A DNA stretch of 64,000 nt. Origin: Glandiceps talaboti (Eukaryota > Hemichordata > Enteropneusta > Spengelidae). The notes under the pieces were generated by a model that was given only the letters and a program-made list of their open reading frames with translations, was not told where the DNA came from and did no database searches. A program made the translations under genes and the position numbers. Numbering within the stretch: the first letter of the stretch is position 1; every line of letters begins with the position of its first letter. This document shows, in pieces, positions 1-57,558 of the stretch. The stretch spans positions 25,502,114-25,566,113 of the forward strand of contig NC_135557.1 in NCBI RefSeq assembly GCF_964340395.1, written 5' to 3'.

Positions 1-905
1 TGGCTGTTGATGACTCGACAACGTTTGAGGTACAGAGTCGATTGATGACGTCATTTATATGCATATGTTAACGCTGAAGTAAACGGAGGTTACAAGAGGA
101 CATGCTTTGTACTTTGCCATTAGGGGAAAGGTATTGTACAAAGTTTGTGATAAACATAAAAGAAGATAACATATCAGGTGTTTTTTTTAAAACCTTGGTT
201 CCTCTTTTACTGTAAATTGTGGACTAGTCATCCATGGTTGTATAATAGAATTCAATTTGTCCTCATTCTGACAAAGTATCTATACTCCTGGTGTTCTTTA
301 TCCTATTTATGTGATAATACCGTCTTGTACACCTGCTTTCCTGACTGATTTTGATGTACTATGTTTAGTATCCTAATACCGTATTGATGTAGACCTAATA
401 TTTACATATTCATATCTAACTACTCACATTGTACATATTAAATTATCAATAATAGATAGAGATGACAGGATGTACATTATATTCCCTAGTTGGATGCTGA
501 TATTTTGCAAGCTAATAGGTTTAGGATGCTTCAGTTTCCATTCACCTCAAAACTTGGGTGAAATCGTTTGTAAAATCGTATGAACCTTAACCGACATATA
601 CCATAGACTTTTTACCATAACTAGTAAATAAAACACTTCAAATCAATGAGTTGATGACACAATGCCGCCGTGTTACTATTTGGATAATAAAGTCCAGTTG
701 AAAATTGTAAAAAAAAAAAATAAAAAAAAAAAAAACTATAGTTCGAAGATAAGAACCTGGTACTTATACTAGTCCATTGTTCTATGCATGGTGATAAGCA
801 AACGACGACATTTAGTAGTCATGTGATCTGGAAATACTAATATAAAGGCATGAAGCAGAGTTGAATAATACATATACATCTAACATAGCTCGTCTACCTA
901 TTAAC
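1..905 (+). promoter_or_regulatory. 5' flank of TRIM/NHL gene A (left copy of duplication)
   Basis: Upstream region of the first TRIM/NHL gene. It aligns by eye with 5232-5927, so the duplication includes the promoter; its left edge lies outside the window. A CRE-type palindrome TGACGTCA is at 46-53 and is kept at 5275-5282. A TATA-like TATAAAG is at 841-847, about 60 bases before the ATG at 906. An A-rich run lies near 708-735. I see no coding exon here. The regulatory roles are inferred from motif match only. Confidence 0.45.
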
Positions 906-3119
906 ATGGCTGTTACTGGTGATATCAACGAATTTCTCCACAAGATTGACGACAATTTTGTATCCTGTCCGATTTGTCGTAAACAATACAAGGAGCCTAA
1001 AATCCTACCATGTCTACACACCTTTTGTCAACAGTGTTTGATACACTATGTCAAGAAACACGGCGATTTAAAGTGTTCAACGTGTCAAAGAACATGTCAG
1101 CTACCCGATGGAGGCGTGAAAGTACTAACGACAAATTTATTTATGAAATCACTGGTGGATTTGATTGTTGAAAGACGACGACTTGAACTCAATATGAAAG
1201 AGCTGATCTGCGACGTTTGTAAAACATATATTAAAGAGAAGCAAACATTGTCAAGTAAAGTTTGCATAGATTGTTCACATCATTTCTGTGATACATGTAT
1301 TGACACAGAGCATAAGAGAACGAACACAATGTGTTCACATCGCATGGTTACAATTGACGAGTACCAGAAAACAAACATTCCAGCCAAGTTTCAAAACCCT
1401 GGACACTGTACCCGTCATCGCAAACACGAAATGGAGTTCTTCTGCGATACTTGCCAGGTACCTGTGTGCACTGAGTGTATGATCAGCGAACATAAAGTTC
1501 CTAAACATGCGTACAGGGATCTGAAGGACGCTGCTGGTGAGTACCGTGGACAATTAGAACAAACAGTACATACATTAAAAGAGAAAGAACAGAATGTCCT
1601 TGCTTTTAAACATGATATCAAGGAAAAACCAGAGACTATCAGAACGAAGACTTTGAATAGTTGTAACACGGAACAACAGAAAGTTGAGGAGAGAGCAGAG
1701 GAAATTATCAGAAAGGTGCGTCAGGAAGAAAAACGACTTAAAGACGAACTCCAACATAAATGTGACTTAAGATTAAAAGATTTAGATAAAGAAATTGATG
1801 AACCAGATTTAGAACTTACACCAAAACATGAAAATATCTCTAGTACTTGTAATTATGTAGAAACACTAATGCATCATGGGAATGATGTACACCTGCTGTC
1901 GACTAAACAATTAACAACATCTCGTGTTGATGAACTAGTCGCTATGGAAATTATATCTGATGTAGAATTCTTCTCGTGTGATAAAATGGATAACAGTGAT
2001 AGAGTAGGAGAAATACGGTATAATGTTGATGTTAGCCAGTGTATAATTAAAAACATTCCAAGCCATATTCTCAAAGGGGATTCAGTTGACATTGTCATGA
2101 CAACGAAAGACAACCTAGGAAAACCAGTATTGCCTCGTCAACCAATCACAGTGAAGGTACAGAAACCAGATGCATCTTGGGAGAATTTGTCGACAGTAGA
2201 TAACTATGATGGTACACACGTAGTAAAAATTAATGGGACATCAGCTGGTAAACATCGTGTTACCATGGAAATCAATAATCAACCAGTACCACCATCACCA
2301 TTTGAAATTCGTGTCATCAAAGTGAAGAAATTCGGATGTAAAGGCAGCAAAGGCGGACACTTTAACAATCCAAATGGTGTTGCTATAAACAAAGATGGTA
2401 ACATAGCTGTAGCAGACACTGATAATAATCGTGTTCAAATCATCAACATTAACGATGGGAAAAGCTTAAAAACTTTAGAATTTCCATGCTTTCAGAATAA
2501 ATTCATACCATACGATGTAGCAGTATCAGCCGATAATAATTATTATATGACAGATCAGGGTAACAATCAAATAGTTATTAGTAATGACACTGGCAAGTAT
2601 GTGAGATCCTTTGGACATAATGACCTCAATAAGCCCTGTGGAATCACTATTAGTCCTGTAGATGGCAATGTATATGTAGCAAGTTGTAAGTCGAGTAAAG
2701 TAATGATTTATACGCCAAATGGTAGTAGACGAGTGAAAGTTATTCGGGTTAATTTGTACGGACCTAGATATATCATAATTAACGACCTAGGAATGATATT
2801 TGTGTCAGATAGCCATCAGCGTATACAAGTTTTCAATGCGAAGTTTGATTTCTTATATACCTGTGGTAGTAAGGGTAGTGGGGATGGTCAGTTTAGTCGC
2901 ATCAGAGGTGTCTATTATTATGATAAATACGTGTATGCATGTGATTATGGTAATAATACTGTACAGAAATTTGACATCTGTGGAAGTTTCCTGTGTCGTA
3001 TTGATAGTGATAGTGATGGGCTTAAAGGGCCACAGGGTATAGTGTTGACAAATGGCACACCACAGAAAATAGTTGTTGTTGACAGAGGTAATCACTGTAT
3101 CAGAATATTTGTAGAATAA
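906..3119 (+). CDS. TRIM/NHL protein A (RING, B-boxes, coiled coil, filamin, NHL), probable E3 ubiquitin ligase
   Basis: Intronless 737-residue protein of the TRIM2/TRIM3-like class. I chose the ATG at 906 (context aacATGG): the open frame runs back to a TTG at 861, but both paralogues share MAVTGD at this point. RING zinc ligands are C21, C24, C36, H38, C41, C44, C57 and C60, typical of cytosolic E3 ligases. B-box 1 starts at C102/C105. B-box 2 has C168, H171, C180 and C183 with the normal 8-residue gap. A charged coiled coil spans about 210-340, a filamin-type immunoglobulin repeat about 375-470, and a six-bladed NHL propeller about 474-737, with repeats such as NGVAINKDGNIAVADTDNNR. By family, such proteins bind RNA or protein through NHL and ubiquitinate targets; the target here is unknown. 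The neighbour at 5928 is a tandem paralogue. The single exon suggests retro-origin or lineage-specific expansion. Confidence 0.93.
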   Translation: MAVTGDINEFLHKIDDNFVSCPICRKQYKEPKILPCLHTFCQQCLIHYVKKHGDLKCSTCQRTCQLPDGGVKVLTTNLFMKSLVDLIVERRRLELNMKELICDVCKTYIKEKQTLSSKVCIDCSHHFCDTCIDTEHKRTNTMCSHRMVTIDEYQKTNIPAKFQNPGHCTRHRKHEMEFFCDTCQVPVCTECMISEHKVPKHAYRDLKDAAGEYRGQLEQTVHTLKEKEQNVLAFKHDIKEKPETIRTKTLNSCNTEQQKVEERAEEIIRKVRQEEKRLKDELQHKCDLRLKDLDKEIDEPDLELTPKHENISSTCNYVETLMHHGNDVHLLSTKQLTTSRVDELVAMEIISDVEFFSCDKMDNSDRVGEIRYNVDVSQCIIKNIPSHILKGDSVDIVMTTKDNLGKPVLPRQPITVKVQKPDASWENLSTVDNYDGTHVVKINGTSAGKHRVTMEINNQPVPPSPFEIRVIKVKKFGCKGSKGGHFNNPNGVAINKDGNIAVADTDNNRVQIININDGKSLKTLEFPCFQNKFIPYDVAVSADNNYYMTDQGNNQIVISNDTGKYVRSFGHNDLNKPCGITISPVDGNVYVASCKSSKVMIYTPNGSRRVKVIRVNLYGPRYIIINDLGMIFVSDSHQRIQVFNAKFDFLYTCGSKGSGDGQFSRIRGVYYYDKYVYACDYGNNTVQKFDICGSFLCRIDSDSDGLKGPQGIVLTNGTPQKIVVVDRGNHCIRIFVE

Positions 3120-5231: not shown

Positions 5232-5927
5232 TGGCTGTTGATGACTCAACAACTTTTCTAGTAGAGTCGATTGATGACGTCATTTATATGCATATGTTAA
5301 CACTTAAGTATAGGACGGTTACAAGAGGACATACTTTGTACTTTCTTTGCCACTAGGGGAAAGGTATTGTATAAAGTGGGTGATAAACATAAACGAAGAT
5401 AACATATCAGGTGTTTTTTAAAACCTTGGTTCCTCTTTCACTGCAAATTGTAGACTCGTCATCCATTACACACATTTTGCATATTAAATTACCAATAATA
5501 GATAGAGATGACAGGAGGGACATTATATGCCCTAGTTGGATGTTGATAATCTGCAAGCTAATAGGTTTAGGATGCTTCTGTTTCCAATCACTTCAAAACT
5601 TGGGTGAAATCGTTTGTAAAATCGTATGAACCTTAACCGACATATACTATACAGTTTTTACTGTAACTAGTAAATAAAACACTTCAAATCAATGACCTAA
5701 TGACATAACGCTGTCGTACCACTACTTGGAAAGTTCAGTTGAGTTGAAAATTGTAAAAAGTACGGTTTTAAAGATAAGAACCAAGTAGGTATACATTGTT
5801 CTATGTTTGGTGGTGATAAACAAACGACAACATTTAGTAATCACGTGATATGGAAACACTAATATACATAAACAATTGAGAGTTGAATATTACATATACA
5901 TCTAACACAGCCCGTCTAAATTTTAAC
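5232..5927 (+). promoter_or_regulatory. 5' flank of TRIM/NHL gene B (right copy of duplication)
   Basis: Aligns by eye with the 5' flank of gene A from base 1 onward, including the CRE-type TGACGTCA at 5275-5282. The TATAAAG of copy A is replaced by a weaker AATATACATAA-like stretch near 5861-5871. Several indels shorten the copy by about 200 bases. Confidence 0.5.
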
Positions 5928-8357
5928 ATGGCCGTTACTGGTGACATCAACGAATTTCTCAACAAGATTGACGATGATTTTGTATCCTGTCCGATCTGTC
6001 GTGAACAATACAAGGATCCTAAAATCCTACCATGTCTACACACGTTTTGTCAACGGTGTTTGATAACTTCTGTCAAGAAACACGGCGATTTAAAGTGTTT
6101 TACGTGTCAAAGAACATGTCAGCTATCCGATGGAGATGTCCAAGAACTAACGTCAAATTTATTTATGAAATCACTGGTGGATTTGATTGTTGAAAGACGA
6201 CGACTTCAACTCCAAACGATACAGATAGTCTGTGAGAGTTGTGACAAGGAGGAAACAACTAAAGTTTGCCTCGAATGTCCACAGTATTTTTGTGATACCT
6301 GTATGGATACCGGGCATAACAGAATGAAAGCACTGCGTTCACATCGCGTGGTAACGGTTGATGAGTACAAGCAAACAAATCCAAACATTCCTGTCGCGTT
6401 TCACAAACCTGGATATTGTACACGTCATGACAAAGACAAAGACAAAGACAAAAAAGACAAAGACAAAGACAAAGACAAAGTCAAAGACAAAGACAAAGAA
6501 GACAAAGACAAACACAAAGACAAACACAAAGTCAAAGACAAAGACAAAGACAAAGACAAAGACAAAGACAAAAAAGACAAAGACAAAGACAAAGACAAAA
6601 AAGACAAAGACAAAGACAAAAAAGACAAAGACAAAGACAAAGACAAAGACAAAAACGAAATCAGCCTCTTCTGCGTTACTTGCCAGGTACCTGTGTGCAC
6701 CGAGTGCACGATCATCGAACATAAAAATCCTGAACATTCGTACAGGGATCTGAAAGACGCTGCTGGTGAGTACCGTAGACAATTAGAACAAACAGTACAG
6801 ACATTAAAAGATAAAGAAAAGAATGAACTTCATATCAAACAGGGTATCAAGGAAAATATCAAAAGGGGGATTTCGGAACGTTGTGACAGAGAAAAAAAGA
6901 AAGTCGAGGAAAGAACAGAAGAAATTATCGGAAAGGTACGTCAGGAAGAAAAACGACTGAAAGAAGAACTCGAACAGCAATATGAATTAAGATTAAAACA
7001 TTTAGCTGAAGAAATTGATGATTTAAAAGTAAATCGTGAAAATATCTCTGATACATGTACTTATGTAGACACACTGATGCATCATGGTAATGATGTACAT
7101 ATGTTATCGACTAAACAATTGACAACGGCACGTGCTGATGAACTAGTTGCAATGGAATTCGAAACGAATGATTACATTAAATCTGATGTAGAATTCATCT
7201 CATGCGACAAAATGGATAAGAATGACAGACTAGGAGAAATACGGTGTGATGTTGATGTTAGAAAGTGTACAATTGAAATCATTCCAAAACAAATAATCAA
7301 AGGAGAATCAGTTGACATTGTCGTTACTACGAATGATAACCTAGGAAGACCAGTACTGCCTCGTCAACCAATCAAGGTGAAACCAGATCCACCATTGGAG
7401 AAATTATCGATGGTAGATAACTGCGATGGAACACACGTAGTAACAATTAATGGGACATCAGCTGGTGAATATCGTGTTACCATGGAAATAAATAATCAAC
7501 CAATACCAGGATCACCAATTGAAATTCATGTCACCGAAGGATTGGTAAAGACATTGGGGTGCAAATGCAGCAAAGATGAACAATTTAACAATCCAAAGGG
7601 TGTTGCTATGAACAATGACGGCAACATAGCTGTAGCAGACACTGATAATAATCGTGTTCAAATCATCGACATTGACTCTAGGAAATGCTTAAAAACATTT
7701 AAATTTCCGGGATATAAGTATAATTTCATACCATACGATGTAGCAGTATCAGCTGATAATGATTATTATATGACAGATCAGGGTAACAATCAAATAGTTA
7801 TTAGTAATGACAATGGGGAGTGTAAGGGATGCTTTGGACACAATGACCTCGATGAGCCCTGTGGAATCAGTATAAGTCCTGTAAATGGCAATGTTTATGT
7901 AACAAATTATAAGCCAAGTAAAGTAATAATTTATACACCAAATGGGAGACAACTGAGGGTTATTCGGGGTAAGGTCAAAGGTCACGAATATCTCTACGGA
8001 CCTAGATATATCACAATTAACGACCTTGGAATGATATTTGTGTCAGATAGCCGTCAATGTATTCAAGTTTTTAATGCTAAGTTTGAATTCCTATATACCT
8101 GTGGTAGTAAGGGTAACGGGGATGGTCAGTTTAGTTTCATCACAGGAGTCTATGCCAATGATAAATACGTGTATGCATGTGATTATGGTAATAATACTGT
8201 ACAGAAATTTGACATCTGTGGAAGTTTCCTGTGTCGTATTGATAATTACAGTGACGGGCTTAAATGTCCAGAAGGTATAGTGTTGACAAATGACACACCA
8301 CAGAAAATAGTTGTTGTTGATTATGGCCATAACTGTATCAGAATATTTGTAGAATAG
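5928..8357 (+). CDS. TRIM/NHL protein B with a Lys/Asp tract inserted in B-box 2
   Basis: Intronless paralogue of gene A, 809 residues from the ATG at 5928 (context aacATGG); the frame is open from a TTG at 5883. The RING ligands sit at the same positions as in A (C21 to C60). B-box 1 is shorter than in A. In B-box 2 the first pair is C164 and H167, but the next cysteine is C249, so 81 residues separate them where A has 8. The insert is an almost pure Lys/Asp tract coded by a GACAAA hexamer repeat. The coiled coil (about 280-400), filamin repeat (about 445-540) and NHL propeller (about 541-809) are intact and close to those of A. The expected role is E3 ligase with NHL target binding. Whether B-box 2 still folds is uncertain. 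Intact flanking domains and the open frame argue against a pseudogene. Confidence 0.92.
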   Translation: MAVTGDINEFLNKIDDDFVSCPICREQYKDPKILPCLHTFCQRCLITSVKKHGDLKCFTCQRTCQLSDGDVQELTSNLFMKSLVDLIVERRRLQLQTIQIVCESCDKEETTKVCLECPQYFCDTCMDTGHNRMKALRSHRVVTVDEYKQTNPNIPVAFHKPGYCTRHDKDKDKDKKDKDKDKDKVKDKDKEDKDKHKDKHKVKDKDKDKDKDKDKKDKDKDKDKKDKDKDKKDKDKDKDKDKNEISLFCVTCQVPVCTECTIIEHKNPEHSYRDLKDAAGEYRRQLEQTVQTLKDKEKNELHIKQGIKENIKRGISERCDREKKKVEERTEEIIGKVRQEEKRLKEELEQQYELRLKHLAEEIDDLKVNRENISDTCTYVDTLMHHGNDVHMLSTKQLTTARADELVAMEFETNDYIKSDVEFISCDKMDKNDRLGEIRCDVDVRKCTIEIIPKQIIKGESVDIVVTTNDNLGRPVLPRQPIKVKPDPPLEKLSMVDNCDGTHVVTINGTSAGEYRVTMEINNQPIPGSPIEIHVTEGLVKTLGCKCSKDEQFNNPKGVAMNNDGNIAVADTDNNRVQIIDIDSRKCLKTFKFPGYKYNFIPYDVAVSADNDYYMTDQGNNQIVISNDNGECKGCFGHNDLDEPCGISISPVNGNVYVTNYKPSKVIIYTPNGRQLRVIRGKVKGHEYLYGPRYITINDLGMIFVSDSRQCIQVFNAKFEFLYTCGSKGNGDGQFSFITGVYANDKYVYACDYGNNTVQKFDICGSFLCRIDNYSDGLKCPEGIVLTNDTPQKIVVVDYGHNCIRIFVE
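6429..6656 (+). repeat. Coding hexanucleotide repeat (GACAAA)n giving a Lys/Asp tract
   Basis: Imperfect GACAAA repeat of about 228 bases, with extra AAA triplets and scattered GTC, GAA and AAC-type interruptions. All length changes keep the frame of TRIM/NHL gene B. It lies exactly between the first Cys-x2-His pair and the following Cys-x2-Cys pair of B-box 2. The tandem neighbour has only an 8-residue loop at the same place. Confidence 0.95.
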
Positions 8358-13392: not shown

Positions 13393-13467
13393 CTACCCGG
13401 TGTCTTCCTCAATCCAGGCCACTATCTTGCCTTCCCAACCAGGAACTATGTCATCATCACTTGTTAC
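13393..13467 (-). CDS. DIXDC1: Dixin last exon: end of DIX domain and stop
   Basis: Codes PGWEGKIVAWIEEDTG and then TAG. The GWEGKIVAWVEED-type ending is diagnostic for Dixin. The acceptor reads ttgctag; the phase is 0. Confidence 0.95.
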   Translation of the reverse strand, partial: VTSDDDIVPGWEGKIVAWIEEDTG

Positions 13468-15520: not shown

Positions 15521-15629
15521 CTCTTCTTTAACAGTACCAAACTCTGGATCTAATGCTTTGAAGTGATATCTATAGTTTCCTTGTCTGTCGTATATTTCTC
15601 TAAAGTCTCTCAGTGTGATTTCACCAAGC
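15521..15629 (-). CDS. DIXDC1: Dixin exon: middle of DIX domain
   Basis: Codes [16 protein letters not shown] and [20 protein letters not shown], the most conserved block of the Dixin DIX domain. The first base completes an Arg codon split from the previous exon; the exon ends in phase 0 at a gtgag donor. Confidence 0.97.
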
Positions 15630-15984
15630 CTATCAATAACAGTATCAACATCAAAATGACAAACATTAAAATCAAAATCATGGCAAGCTGCCTCAAAAAC
15701 TTGTAATTATACACAAACATAGTTAGCTGTAATGCTTCTAACTACTACAGTCTGGATTTAAACCCACTTAGCAATAACTGGGTTTGATTAATAAAATTAA
15801 CATGTCTGTATGCAGGAAGGGTGATACTTAATTTGACTCTGAAAAACAATGCAGGTTTTATCCTAGTACTCTGTTTTAATAGTAGAACACTGGGAACTAC
15901 TCAATTGCTATTATTCAACACATTTCCCCCAATTTATTTGGACCAATAAAGATCACTATCATGAAACGATATACTTGCATACAA

Positions 15985-16381
15985 GATAATCAAATTAAGA
16001 TAATCTAACTAAGATAATCTAACTAAGATAATCTAAGATAACCTATGATAATCTAACTAGGATAATCTAAGATAATCTAACAGAGATAATCTAGCTGAGA
16101 TAATCTAACTCAGATAATCTAACTAAGATAATATAAGATAATGTAACTGAGATAATCTAACTGAGATAATCTAAGATAATCTAACTATGATAATCTAACT
16201 AAGATAATCTAAGATAACCTATGATAATCTAACTAAGATAATCTAAGATAATGTAACTGAGATAATCTAGCTGAGATAATCTAACTGAGATAATCTAACT
16301 AAGATAATATAAGATAATGTAACTGAGATAATCTAAGATAATCTAACTATGATAATCTAACTGAGATAATCTAAGATAATG
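15985..16381. repeat. Degenerate GATAATCTAA-type tandem repeat
   Basis: About 400 bases of AAGATAATCT and AACTGAGATAATCT units, alternating about 9- and 14-bp spacing. It fills the intron just downstream of the exon that opens the DIX domain. Confidence 0.9.
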
Positions 16382-16404
16382 ACATACATTAAATGATTAC
16401 CCAC

Positions 16405-16525
16405 CTTTTTGGTATGGAAGACATGAATGGAGTAACAGTTCTTTCTGTGAAATACAGCACCTTGGTACATGGTATAGAGGATGGACCATTTGTGTATGGA
16501 GATATACCACCAAAACCACCAGACA
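16405..16525 (-). CDS. DIXDC1: Dixin exon opening the DIX domain; starts inside the 65-bp array
   Basis: Codes SGGFGGISPYTNGPSSIP and then CTKVLYFTERTVTPFMSSIP, the first strands of DIX. It ends AG before gtgggt. The acceptor ttttacag and the first 35 or so bases of the exon are identical to the unit of the adjoining 65-bp array. Phase fits the exon at 19488 (A plus TG makes Met). The only other phase-compatible AG lies inside conserved DIX sequence and would delete the first strand, so the repeat-borne acceptor is the best choice. Confidence 0.88.
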
Positions 16526-19102
16526 CTGTAAAATGTAAATACTACATTCATTATTTGTATATGGAGATATACCACCAAAACCACCAGACACTGTAAAATG
16601 TAAATACTACATTCATTATTTGTGTATGGAGATATACCACCAAAACCACCAGACACTGTAAAATGTAAATACTACATTCATTATATGTGTATGGAGATAT
16701 ACCACCAAAACCACCAGACACTGTAAAATGTAAACACTACATTCATTATTTGTGTATGGAGATATACCACCAAAACCACCAGACACTGTAAAATGTAAAT
16801 ACTACATTCATTATTTGTGTATGGAGATATACCACCAAAACCACCAGACACTGTAAAATGTAAATACTACATTCATTATTTGTGTATGGAGATATACCAC
16901 CAAAACCACCAGACACTGTAAAATGTAAACACTACATTCATTATTTGTGTATGGAGATATACCACCAAAACCACCAGACACTGTAAGATGTAAATACTAC
17001 ATTCATTATTTGTGTATGGAGATATACCACCAAAACCACCAGACACTGTAAAATGTAAACACTACATTCATTATTTGTATATGGAGATATACCACCAAAA
17101 CCACCAGACACTGTAAAATGTAAACACTACATTCATTATTTGTATATGGAGATATACCACCAAAACCACCAGACACTGTAAGATGTAAATACTACATTCA
17201 TTATTTGTGTACGGAGATATACCACCAAAACCACCAGACACTGTAAAATGTAAATACTACATTCATTATTTGTATATGGAGATATACCACCAAAACCACC
17301 AGACACTGTAAGATGTAAATACTACATTCATTATTTGTGTATGGAGATATACCACCAAAACCACCAGACACTGTAAGATGTAAATACTACATTCATTATT
17401 TGTGTATGGAGATATACCACCAAAACCACCAGACACTGTAAAATGTAAACACTACATTCATTATTTGTGTATGGAGATATACCACCAAAACCACCAGACA
17501 CTGTAAAATGTAAATACTACATTCATTATTTGTGTATGGAGATATACCACCAAAACCACCAGACACTGTAAAATGTAAATACTACATTCATTATTTGTGT
17601 ATGGAGATATACCACCAAAACCACCGGACACTGTAAAATGTAAACACTACATTCATTATTTGTGTATGGAGATATACCACCAAAACCACCAGACACTGTA
17701 AGATGTAAATACTACATTCATTATATGTGTATGGAGATATACCACCAAAACCACCAGACACTGTAAAATGTAAACACTACATTCATTATTTGTGTATGGA
17801 GATATACCACCAAAACCACCAGACACTGTAAGATGTAAATACTACATTCATTATTTGTGTATGGAGATATACCACCAAAACCACCAGACACTGTAAGATG
17901 TAAATACTACATTCATTATATGTGTATGGAGATATACCACCAAAACCACCAGACACTGTAAAATGTAAAATACTACATTCATTATTTGTGTATGGAGATA
18001 TACCACCAAAACCACCAGACACTGTAAAATGTAAAATACTACATTCATTATTTGTGTATGGAGATATACCACCAAAACCACCAGACACTGTAAAATGTAA
18101 ATACTACATTCATTATTTGTGTATGGAGATATACCACCAAAACCACCAGACACTGTAAAATGTAAACACTACATTCATTATTTGTGTATGGAGATATACC
18201 ACCAAAACCACCAGACACTGTAAAATGTAAATACTACATTCATTATTTGTGTATGGAGATATACCACCAAAACCACCAGACACTGTAAAATGTAAATACT
18301 ACATTCATTATTTGTGTACGGAGATATACCACCAAAACCACCAGACACTGTAAGATGTAAATACTACATTCATTATTTGTGTATGGAGATATACCACCAA
18401 AACCACCAGACACTGTAAAATGTAAACACTACATTCATTATTTGTGTAAGGAGATATACCACCAAAACCACCAGACACTGTAAAATGTAAATACTACATT
18501 CATTATTTGTGTACGGAGATATACCACCAAAACCACCAGACACTGTAAGATGTAAATACTACATTCATTATTTGTGTATGGAGATATACCACCAAAACCA
18601 CCAGACACTGTAAGATGTAAATACTACATTCATTATTTGTGTATGGAGATATACCACCAAAACCACCAGACACTGTAAGATGTAAATACTACATTCATTA
18701 TTTGTGTATGGAGATATACCACCAAAACCACCAGACACTGTAAGATGTAAATACTACATTCATTATTTGTGTATGGAGATATACCACCAAAACCACCAGA
18801 CACTGTAAGATGTAAACACTACATTCATTATTTGTGTATGGAGATATACCACCAAAACCACCAGACACTGTAAGATGTAAATACTACATTCATTATTTGT
18901 GTATGGAGATATACCACCAAAACCACCAGACACTGTAAGATGTAAACACTACATTCATTATTTGTGTATGGAGATATACCACCAAAACCACCAGACACTG
19001 TAAAATGTAAATACTACATTCATTATTTGTGTATGGAGATATACCACCAAAACCACCAGACACTGTAAGATGTAAATACTACATTCATTATTTGTGTATG
19101 GA
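16489..19102 (-). repeat. 65-bp minisatellite, about 40 copies, each carrying a Dixin 3' splice site
   Basis: Near-identical 65-bp units (a few are 66). On the transcribed strand each contains intron end TTTACATTTTACAG (or TTTACATCTTACAG) and the exon start TGTCTGGTGGTTTTGGTGGT. The unit is 3x21+2 bases, so reading through copies shifts frame; one of the three frames meets TAA in CACAAATAATG. Copy variants: aaaatg/agatg beside the AG, aatact/aacact, and gtatgg/gtacgg. Confidence 0.97.
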
Positions 19103-19487: not shown

Positions 19488-19569
19488 TATGTAGTGACGT
19501 TATCGGTGACCTCCTTGGATCTCTCTCTTGACTGTAACCATGGTGACGAGATACACTTTCTGTTGAACT
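19488..19569 (-). CDS. DIXDC1: Dixin exon: basic linker before DIX
   Basis: Codes SRHHGYSQERDPRRSPITSL. It lies where vertebrate Dixin has a divergent Ser/Arg-rich linker. The acceptor is ttgcag and the donor is gtaagt; it ends with one base (A) of a split codon. Confidence 0.88.
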
Positions 19570-26033: not shown

Positions 26034-26164
26034 TAAATCTTGTAAAGTATGGACCATCTTTTTAGTTTCTTCTAATTCTTTGGCAAGATCACTTTGTTCC
26101 TCTTGTAGGTCATTCCAAAATGATGACGATGAACATTGCGAACTTTTATCATCAAATATACTAC
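26034..26164 (-). CDS. DIXDC1: Dixin exon: start of coiled coil, acceptor triplicated
   Basis: Codes SIFDDKSSQCSSSSFWNDLQ and then SDLAKELEETKKMVHTLQDL, matching human EYLEKEMEEAKKMISGLQAL. It starts with two bases of a split Gly codon. The acceptor atttctag lies in a 42-bp repeat present three times. Confidence 0.93.
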
Positions 26165-26279
26165 CTAGAAATATGAAAACACAAGACAACATTTCAAATA
26201 TACTACCTAGAAATATGAAAACACAAGACAACATTTCAAATATACTACCTATAAATGTGAAAACACATGACAACATTTC
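26154..26279 (-). repeat. 42-bp repeat, three copies, each with a 3' splice site
   Basis: On the transcribed strand each copy runs from exon start GTAGTATATTTGA through GTTGTCTTGTGTTTTCATAT to TTTCTAG (TTTATAG in the most upstream copy). The unit is a multiple of three and the read-through frame is open, so use of an upstream acceptor would add 14 or 28 residues resembling FEMLSCVFIFLGSI. Confidence 0.93.
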
Positions 26280-26394
26280 AACAACAAAAATCTGAAAGAT
26301 AATGTAACTAGAACTTCAAATTGAAAGGACAGGTCCTGTTTGACTTTGAATACTTTATTAATTACTATTAGCAACTCACATATTATTTTGGATG

Positions 26395-55640: not shown

Positions 55641-56485
55641 ATCTTCAGAGTTTACTGGGTGGGGGGGGGGAATCTTTTGTATATCACGCAAATCTCTGCT
55701 CTGAATTTATTTGAGCATCTATAGTTACTATGATCTAAGATTTTGAAGTGTGGAACCCTAAGGCATGTGTGTATGAATGGAAGACTGTTACACTTTACAA
55801 CAAATGTACAGACACCTTTCTATTGTCTATGTATATACCTCCTCTAGCTGAGACATCACTTTTAAAGTTGTATGATGAATTATTTGTCACCAGTGACAAT
55901 AGTAAGAAGTACACCTCTACTAATCATTGCCATCCTGGTTGTAAAATAGGTTACTCTTCTTCCAACAAAGTCATCATAGAATGACACTTATACCTGTAGA
56001 CAGATCTGTATTGTCTACATGCATGCCCTAGGTGACATGTACATCACTGTAAAATAGAATGATTTATTTGGTACAAATGAGTTATGGTTCCTTGTCCGGA
56101 ATGTCACCATTCTAGAATCATCAGACAGTGACCATACAGTTTTTACTTTACTTCCAGCATTATCCCCTCTATCAGACACCTCCTGTCAATTATGAATCAT
56201 CATGTGATGTCGGAGAGAGGTGGGTTTTTATACAATAGTTGAAAATCTGTCAGTTGTAAGGTCATGACGTCAGAGAGAGATGGTTCCTTGTACAATAGTT
56301 GAAAATCTGTCAGTTGTCGAGTCAGTAGACCATATGGCATTTTGTCGAGCATTAATCACTAGATCACCTTCATTTCCATACCTGGACACCTATTATGAAT
56401 TATAAATAATTTTCCTGAGTTCCATTAATAATTGATTTGTTGAACTGAAATCTTTGTATAGCAGTATTTTGAACATACATGTACA

Positions 56486-57558
56486 ATGTAGTAGCCTGGC
56501 GTCCATGTAGACAGGACAGTATAGGATTCCAGACTTAGTGACAAAAATACAATGTAGTGGCCTGGAGTCCATGTGGATAGGATAGTATAGGATTCCAGTC
56601 TTAGTGACAACAATACAATGTAGTAGCCTGGAGTTCATGTGGACAGGACAGTATAGGATTCCAGACTTAGTGACAAAGATACAATGTAGTAGCCTGGAGT
56701 CCATGTGGACAGGACAGTATAGGATTCTAGGCTTAGTGACAAAGATACAATGTAGTAGCCTGGAGTCCATGTGGACAGGACAGTATAGGATTCCAGGCTT
56801 AGTGACAAAGATACAATGTAGTAGCATGGAGTCCATGTGGACAGGACAGTACAGGATTCCAGTCTTAGTGACAAAGATACAATGTAGTAGCATGGAGTCC
56901 ATGTGGACAGGACAGTATAGGATTCCAGTCTTAGTGACAAAGATACAATGTAGTAGCATGGAGTCCATGTGGACAGGACAGTATAGGATTCCAGGCTTAG
57001 TGACAAAGATACAATGTAGTAGCCTGGAGTTCATGTGGACAGGACAGTATAGGATTCCTGGCTTAGTGATAAAGATACAATGTAGTAGCCTGGAGTCCAT
57101 GTGGACAGGACAGTATAGGATTCCAGTCTTAGTGACAAAGATACAATGTAGTAGCCTGGAGTTCATGTGGACAGGACAGTATAGGATTCCTGGCTTAGTG
57201 ATAAAGATACAATGTAGTAGCCTGGAGTCCATGTGGACAGGACAGTATAGGATTCCAGTCTTAGTGATAAAGATACAATGTAGTAGCCTGGAGTCCATGT
57301 GGACAGGACAGTATAGGATTCCAGTCTTAGTGACAAAGATACAATGTAGTAGCCTGGAGTCCATGTGGACAGGACAGTATAGGATTCCAGGCTTAGTGAC
57401 AAAGATACAATGTAGTAGCATGGAGTCCATGTGGACAGGACAGTATAGGATTCTAGACTTAGTGACAAAGATACAATGTAGTAGCCTGGAGTCCATGTGG
57501 ACAGGACAGTATAGGATTCTAGACTTAGTGACAAAGATACAATGTAGTAGCCTGGATG
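56486..57558. repeat. 66-bp minisatellite, about 16 copies, open on both strands
   Basis: The unit includes GTAGCCTGGAGTCCATGTGG, ACAGGACAGTATAGGATTCC and CTTAGTGACAAAGATACAAT. Because 66 is a multiple of three, open frames run through it on both strands (about 390 codons minus, about 327 plus). Copy differences change residues in both frames, so no coding constraint is visible. Confidence 0.93.

Follow-up and report, generated by a model that had tools for sequence, protein, structure and literature searches.

In Dixin of the acorn worm Glandiceps talaboti, the first exon of the DIX domain starts inside a 65-bp minisatellite in which the intron-exon boundary itself is repeated. With a probability of roughly three in four, this array is a mirage of the type described for amphioxus, existing mainly as a by-product of high minisatellite turnover and spliced at the exon-proximal copy. 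The occurrence of mirages would then apparently extend beyond the cephalochordates into an acorn worm, and a mirage could reach 40 copies in a conserved gene. With 40 near-identical 3' splice sites in one intron, one of which yields DIX, the locus is also a natural experiment on acceptor choice. While the kind of structure is known, a mirage of 40 copies outside the cephalochordates, a second one in the same gene and the counts of boundary arrays in this genome are new. The analysis was based on a stretch of 64,000 nucleotides, referred to as the window, from contig C10 of a 590-Mb assembly of 47 contigs.

The Dixin Gene and Its Public Protein

The Dixin gene is located on the minus strand of the window. 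Its best database match, P0001, is the dixin-like isoform X2 of Glandiceps talaboti with 758 residues, which carries the Pfam domains CH and DIX and is 99% identical to a query stretch of 191 residues over 96% of its length. Apart from intron-split codons, residues 24-758 of P0001 are matched exactly by 18 exon pieces, with residues 1-23 left unplaced. P0001 fits the joining of the 19488 donor to the last copy of the 65-bp array and is the sole product model seen, being an annotated model that possibly rests on frame logic rather than on reads, and a cluster representative with four mates. In both of the arrays identified in Dixin, it is the last copy that P0001 fits.

The DIX-opening exon (16525-16405) comprises 121 nt and ends at the donor AAG/GTGGGT. 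A preliminary description of this DNA had placed the beginning of this exon inside the minisatellite, which proved correct; the donor at 19488 given there was likewise confirmed, and so were the exon limits. The features are listed in Table 1.

Table 1. Positions of the Dixin exons and arrays in the window, and of repeated exons and boundary arrays elsewhere in the genome.
Feature	Position	Strand	Basis
Upstream Dixin exon, donor ATA/GTAAGT at 19488	19488..19569	minus	splice joining, P0001 mapping
First exon of the DIX domain of Dixin, (M)SGGFGGISPYTNGPSSIPCTKVLYF...; first 38 nt = last repeat copy	16405..16525	minus	identical to P0001
Next DIX exon (109 nt)	15521..15629	minus	splice joining, P0001 mapping
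Last coding exon, DIX end and stop	13393..13467	minus	splice joining, P0001 mapping
Dixin exon GSIFDDKSSQC...	26034..26164	minus	P0001 fits start at last 42-bp copy
65-bp minisatellite, 40.2 copies	16488..19102	minus	TRF, unit list
40 acceptors ACAT[CT]TTACAG, first exon bases	16525..19062	minus	script, acceptor scores
Second array, 42 bp, 3.1 copies	26152..26281	minus	TRF, acceptor scores
Boundary arrays of myosin or kinesin exons	L047, L050, L059, L064, L068, L072		
Repeated kinesin exon	G000:C22:18850998-18861185 (-); G000:C23:19036435-19042650 (-); G000:C11:22926056-22934877 (+)		

Anatomy and Origin of the 65-bp Array

The unit of the array consists of the final 27 nt of the intron and the initial 38 nt of the exon; the exon-like part had been recognised in the preliminary description, where its length was put at about 35 bases. 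TRF gave 97% matches and a score of 4939. By script, the first exon bases of the 40 acceptors were found to run from 19062 down to 16525 in plus-strand coordinates, with a spacing of 65 nt in 37 of 39 cases and of 66 nt in the other two. The AG is kept in all 40 copies matching the acceptor motif, and the spacing leaves no gap for a missing copy. The 39 full units, two of them 66 nt long, fall into 13 sequence types, which are interleaved along the array. Variation is confined to six positions and a one-base insertion, and units of equal length differ by a mean of 1.53, without a trend by the distance between copies. Since similarity is flat with distance, the whole cluster, including the edge copy, looks homogenised. 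The sequence CCATACACAAAT is present at both ends of the array, as expected for an array ending in a partial copy, and this arrangement would also be compatible with a birth by slippage between short direct repeats.

It is very improbable that the copy number has been inflated or collapsed by the assembly and that the array in the animal differs greatly in length. Such an error is suggested by the general difficulty of assembling tandem repeats and by one amphioxus mirage that apparently was misassembled in the draft genome (PMC3087553); moreover, the contig given for P0001 has a length of 26684518 and that of the window one of 26682613, and the assembly versions therefore probably differ. A crude assembly stutter is, however, argued against by the interleaving of the 13 types among the 39 full units; the absence of any decay of similarity with distance and the restriction to one locus likewise speak against such an error.

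This restriction was seen with a 21-nt core of the unit, for which 39 exact matches were identified in the assembly, all at the Dixin locus, the 40th copy differing from the core by one base. An origin from a dispersed element was rejected on this ground, and also because the 960 bp at 15521-16480 match in full only here among the 41 places listed; the other 40 are partial and 69-81% identical (40 of 330 candidates were scored).

The 5' end of the exon, (M)SGG...PYTNGP, is also present in Dixin of Saccoglossus and Ptychodera, the proteins of which carry the equivalent stretch, SLKMSGGYGGVPPYTTNGP and SFSMSGGVSPYTNGP, ahead of the DIX core. By this protein comparison, the DIX-opening exon is older than the 65-bp array, and the copies therefore derive from an old exon end. 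Of the five types of change in the exon-like part of the copies, four leave the Dixin reading synonymous (P 0.019 at an expected share of 0.26) and none is synonymous in either of the other frames, and three of the four variant sites are at third positions (P 0.08), these counts being small and the repeat copies not independent. Such mostly synonymous variants would fit a descent of the copies from a coding copy.

Splice Outcomes and Splice Site Scores

When the donor at 19488 was joined to each of the 40 acceptors, only the last copy (16525) led to a reading through DIX. All 39 other acceptors resulted in an early stop, located within the array in 37 cases and a few codons into the next exon in two. 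The earlier claims that most other copies would lose DIX and that the last copy alone keeps the frame are in agreement with this result. The explanation offered, that 65 equals 3x21+2, is slightly incomplete: copies with an offset divisible by three fail as well, since one frame of the repeat contains a stop. For 37 upstream acceptors the stop is at least 146 nt ahead of the exon end, and with the remaining pair it ends at 9 and 20 nt within the following exon of 109 nt. By the 50-nt rule for nonsense-mediated decay, these stop positions would make all 39 products expected targets of decay. Skipping of the 16525-16405 exon also results in a frameshift and the loss of DIX.

The description of about 40 near-equal acceptors holds: with 40 intact copies, the acceptors of the array score 4.8-9.2, the used last copy scores 6.8, and the two with an extra base are the strongest at 9.2. 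By leave-one-out scoring, the 15 other acceptors of Dixin range from -4.6 to 10.2. The median of the array is reached or exceeded by 3.3% of the 3642 minus-strand AGs, the array's own AGs being counted in. No local feature marks the last copy as a better acceptor, and its lack of an advantage in strength over the upstream acceptors counts against the interpretation as a mirage. The copies differ in the distance to the downstream donor, which is 121 nt for the last copy and 186 to 2658 nt for the others.

According to the mirage interpretation, a tandem duplication of the intron-exon boundary would have given rise to a minisatellite, which would have grown to 40 copies. Pairing of the 19488 donor with the last copy, by exon definition, is the most likely choice of the spliceosome, since no other copy is followed by the remainder of the exon and a donor at a distance of 121 nt. 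Occasional use of an upstream copy would produce transcripts with early stops, to be removed by nonsense-mediated decay, and the array would be nearly neutral. A strong preference for the exon-proximal copy is suggested because a conserved gene carries the grown and homogenised array, and because equal competition would leave about one productive mRNA in 40 and strict use of the first acceptor none.

Three other roles of the repeat were considered and not adopted. RNA structure of the array was rejected as a mechanism, since the folding of five tandem units is not better than that of arrays with five repeats of a shuffled unit (z -0.13, 200 shuffles). A role of the 65-bp units in recursive splicing was rejected since the acceptor reads CAG/TG and not AG/GT. 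The use of the units as alternative exons is not favoured: no GT within the unit exceeds a score of 3.4, and the donors of Dixin score 6.2-11.2 in 16 of 17 cases by a matrix that includes them, yet one real Dixin donor scores 1.3.

Comparison to Known Systems

NAGNAG acceptors are located in front of one exon at a spacing of 3 nt, without a minisatellite. The Dixin array shares with them the tandem acceptors in front of one exon; its spacing is 65-66 nt.

In amphioxus, mirages have been described for Adh3, the globins BflGb6 and BflGb9, TnC and PGBD5 (PMC3087553, PMC3902484), and the name is credited by PMC3087553 to the Adh paper (PMC117041). In the portions of PMC3087553 and PMC3902484 that were consulted, mirages are reported to leave regular splicing intact, which for PGBD5 was inferred, and array length is reported to vary between haplotypes. 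To judge from these portions, the Dixin array resembles the amphioxus mirages in being a minisatellite-like tandem duplication of an intron-exon boundary within a gene, where many copies contain splice signals and the genuine exon copy lies at the margin of the array. In Dixin, the unit spans the boundary with 27 intron and 38 exon nucleotides, the authentic exon copy at the array edge is open into the remaining exon, the splice dinucleotide is kept in the copies, and evolution within the cluster is concerted. Unlike the amphioxus cases presented there, the host is a hemichordate and two arrays are found in one gene. The 40 copies compare with 6 and 3 in two haplotypes of BflGb6 (PMC3087553, PMC3902484), and the edge copy of Dixin is undiverged and shares the homogenisation, from which the edge copy of BflGb6 is described as excluded. 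Judged by title or abstract opening, none of the open-licence papers listed for the terms searched concerned a hemichordate mirage.

In the intron gain reported for Drosophila, tandem duplication of proto-splice sites likewise copies splice signals; in the section of PMC2891723 consulted, a duplicated AG/GY gives rise to a new intron, which the CAG/TG of the 65-bp unit cannot do directly.

For human ABCA7, a VNTR in intron 18 has a 25-bp unit that begins with a donor, and splicing was measured in patients and controls (PMC5954066). In the text of this source available here, frameshifting retention of a single unit is given as 2 +/- 1%, unaffected by length, and a 3.2 times higher level of exon 19 skipping is stated for the sample with the largest allele pair relative to that with the smallest. 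Like the Dixin array, this VNTR is located beside an exon, its unit carries a splice site and the use of the next copy causes a frameshift; it differs by its position on the donor side, by its 25-bp unit and by an effect of length on the skipping of the next exon.

It had been proposed in the preliminary description that copy number tunes the share of full-length Dixin, the 40 near-equal acceptors competing with each other. The acceptors are indeed all intact and alike in strength, and a single one gives DIX. However, no support for this proposal was obtained: P0001 fits the last copy, the amphioxus mirages are reported to splice normally (PMC3087553, PMC3902484), the retention in ABCA7 is about 2% and independent of length (PMC5954066), and equal competition would waste about 39 of 40 transcripts. 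A repeat-encoded tail was searched for in cluster representatives and gave no match at E 0.001, with two candidates, which counts weakly against the proposal as decayed transcripts are missed by such a search. Competition between the acceptors is thus unlikely to set the amount of full-length Dixin.

An effect of length without competition between sites, by which a longer array would lower the inclusion of the 16525-16405 exon or slow its splicing, is equally doubtful. It is in line with the effect of VNTR length on the skipping of exon 19 in ABCA7 (PMC5954066), and skipping in Dixin would also remove DIX by a frameshift. The precedents of ABCA7 and the mirages make tuning by copy number as originally worded less likely, and by analogy suggest exon skipping as the better place for any length effect. 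There is little to favour a heritable rheostat, in which a copy number varying between animals or cells would set the DIX-containing Dixin by either route; in that case, the capacity of Wnt signalling would be set as well, and minisatellites at hemichordate splice boundaries would be a general source of tunable splicing.

Boundary Arrays Elsewhere in the Genome

A first base rate for exon-edge arrays in the Glandiceps talaboti genome was obtained from sampled exons. For arrays with a period of at least 20, six of the 112 boundaries assigned to myosin or kinesin exons were located 8 nt or more inside an array (2/57 acceptors, 4/55 donors). The sample of 61 exon matches was small and not random: from 78 myosin matches the 30 with loci were used, and from 142 kinesin matches 31 were chosen for their close proximity to each other. 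Exon edges were defined with a score that had been trained on 17 sites each from Dixin, and of the 61 acceptors and 61 donors, 4 and 6, respectively, were dropped as unassignable. Such arrays cover 8.5% of 118834 non-exon positions, a background in which some positions are counted twice by overlapping loci and which may hold unlisted exons. Among the exons sampled, boundary arrays are no rarity; they are about as common as the density of minisatellites in the sample predicts. Selection against them was not adopted as an explanation, since 6 observed cases as compared to 9.5 expected from coverage (P 0.15) are neither an excess nor a clear shortage. A period that is a multiple of three, in 5 of 8 boundary arrays (P 0.09), is the basis for no claim. 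In 30 of 132 kinase matches screened, no boundary array was flagged; the kinase loci were excluded from the count because their matches mostly end at domain borders within long open frames.

From a reading of the copies, the repeated splice site is plain in five of the six arrays (L047, L059, L050, L064 and L068) and degenerate in L072. For L059, the second AG is three bases off and visible in the letters, having been left unflagged by the script. For L068, the score chose the second donor copy and the reading frame favours the first, 58 nt upstream, both being inside the array.

Among 72 arrays outside the window with a period of at least 20, the maximum is 24.0 copies and 76% have at most 3; in the window, the next-largest copy number after the 65-bp array is 17.2 at the same minimum period. 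The Dixin 65-bp array stands out by its size, and a copy number of 40, far above that of the other arrays met, counts against the mirage interpretation.

At L066:1043-1482, eight copies of a 55-bp unit adjoin a myosin exon and lie outside it, and several of them contain a donor-like AAG/GTAAGG on the minus strand. This array is possibly an old donor mirage that has since become detached from its exon.

The Second Array in Dixin

The 42-bp array contains three acceptors with the first exon bases 26248, 26206 and 26164. Its period is a multiple of three (42 = 3x14), and the reading frame is open across the upstream copies, the use of which would add 14 residues each. At the corresponding position, no insertion was found in the Dixin proteins of Saccoglossus and Ptychodera. 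In contrast to the 65-bp unit, the acceptor is TAG/GTAGTA (AG/GT), and it could in principle serve as a proto-splice or recursive site.

Further Observations

At three loci, an exon of the kinesin motor that matches profile positions 245-320 occurs in about four copies spaced roughly 2 kb apart. For the locus on C11 one gap is 4.6 kb, and on C22 single upstream exons (55-95 and 100-164) are listed beside the repeated exon. These could be arrays of alternative exons or gene duplicates.

Two long open frames were identified on the plus strand of the window at 846-3119 and 5880-8357, which presumably encode TRIM/NHL-type proteins, judging by their motifs. The second contains an in-frame KDKDKD tract derived from a GACAAA repeat at 6429-6655. 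A further large minisatellite in the window, at 56482-57556, has 16.3 copies of a 66-bp unit and long open frames on both strands.
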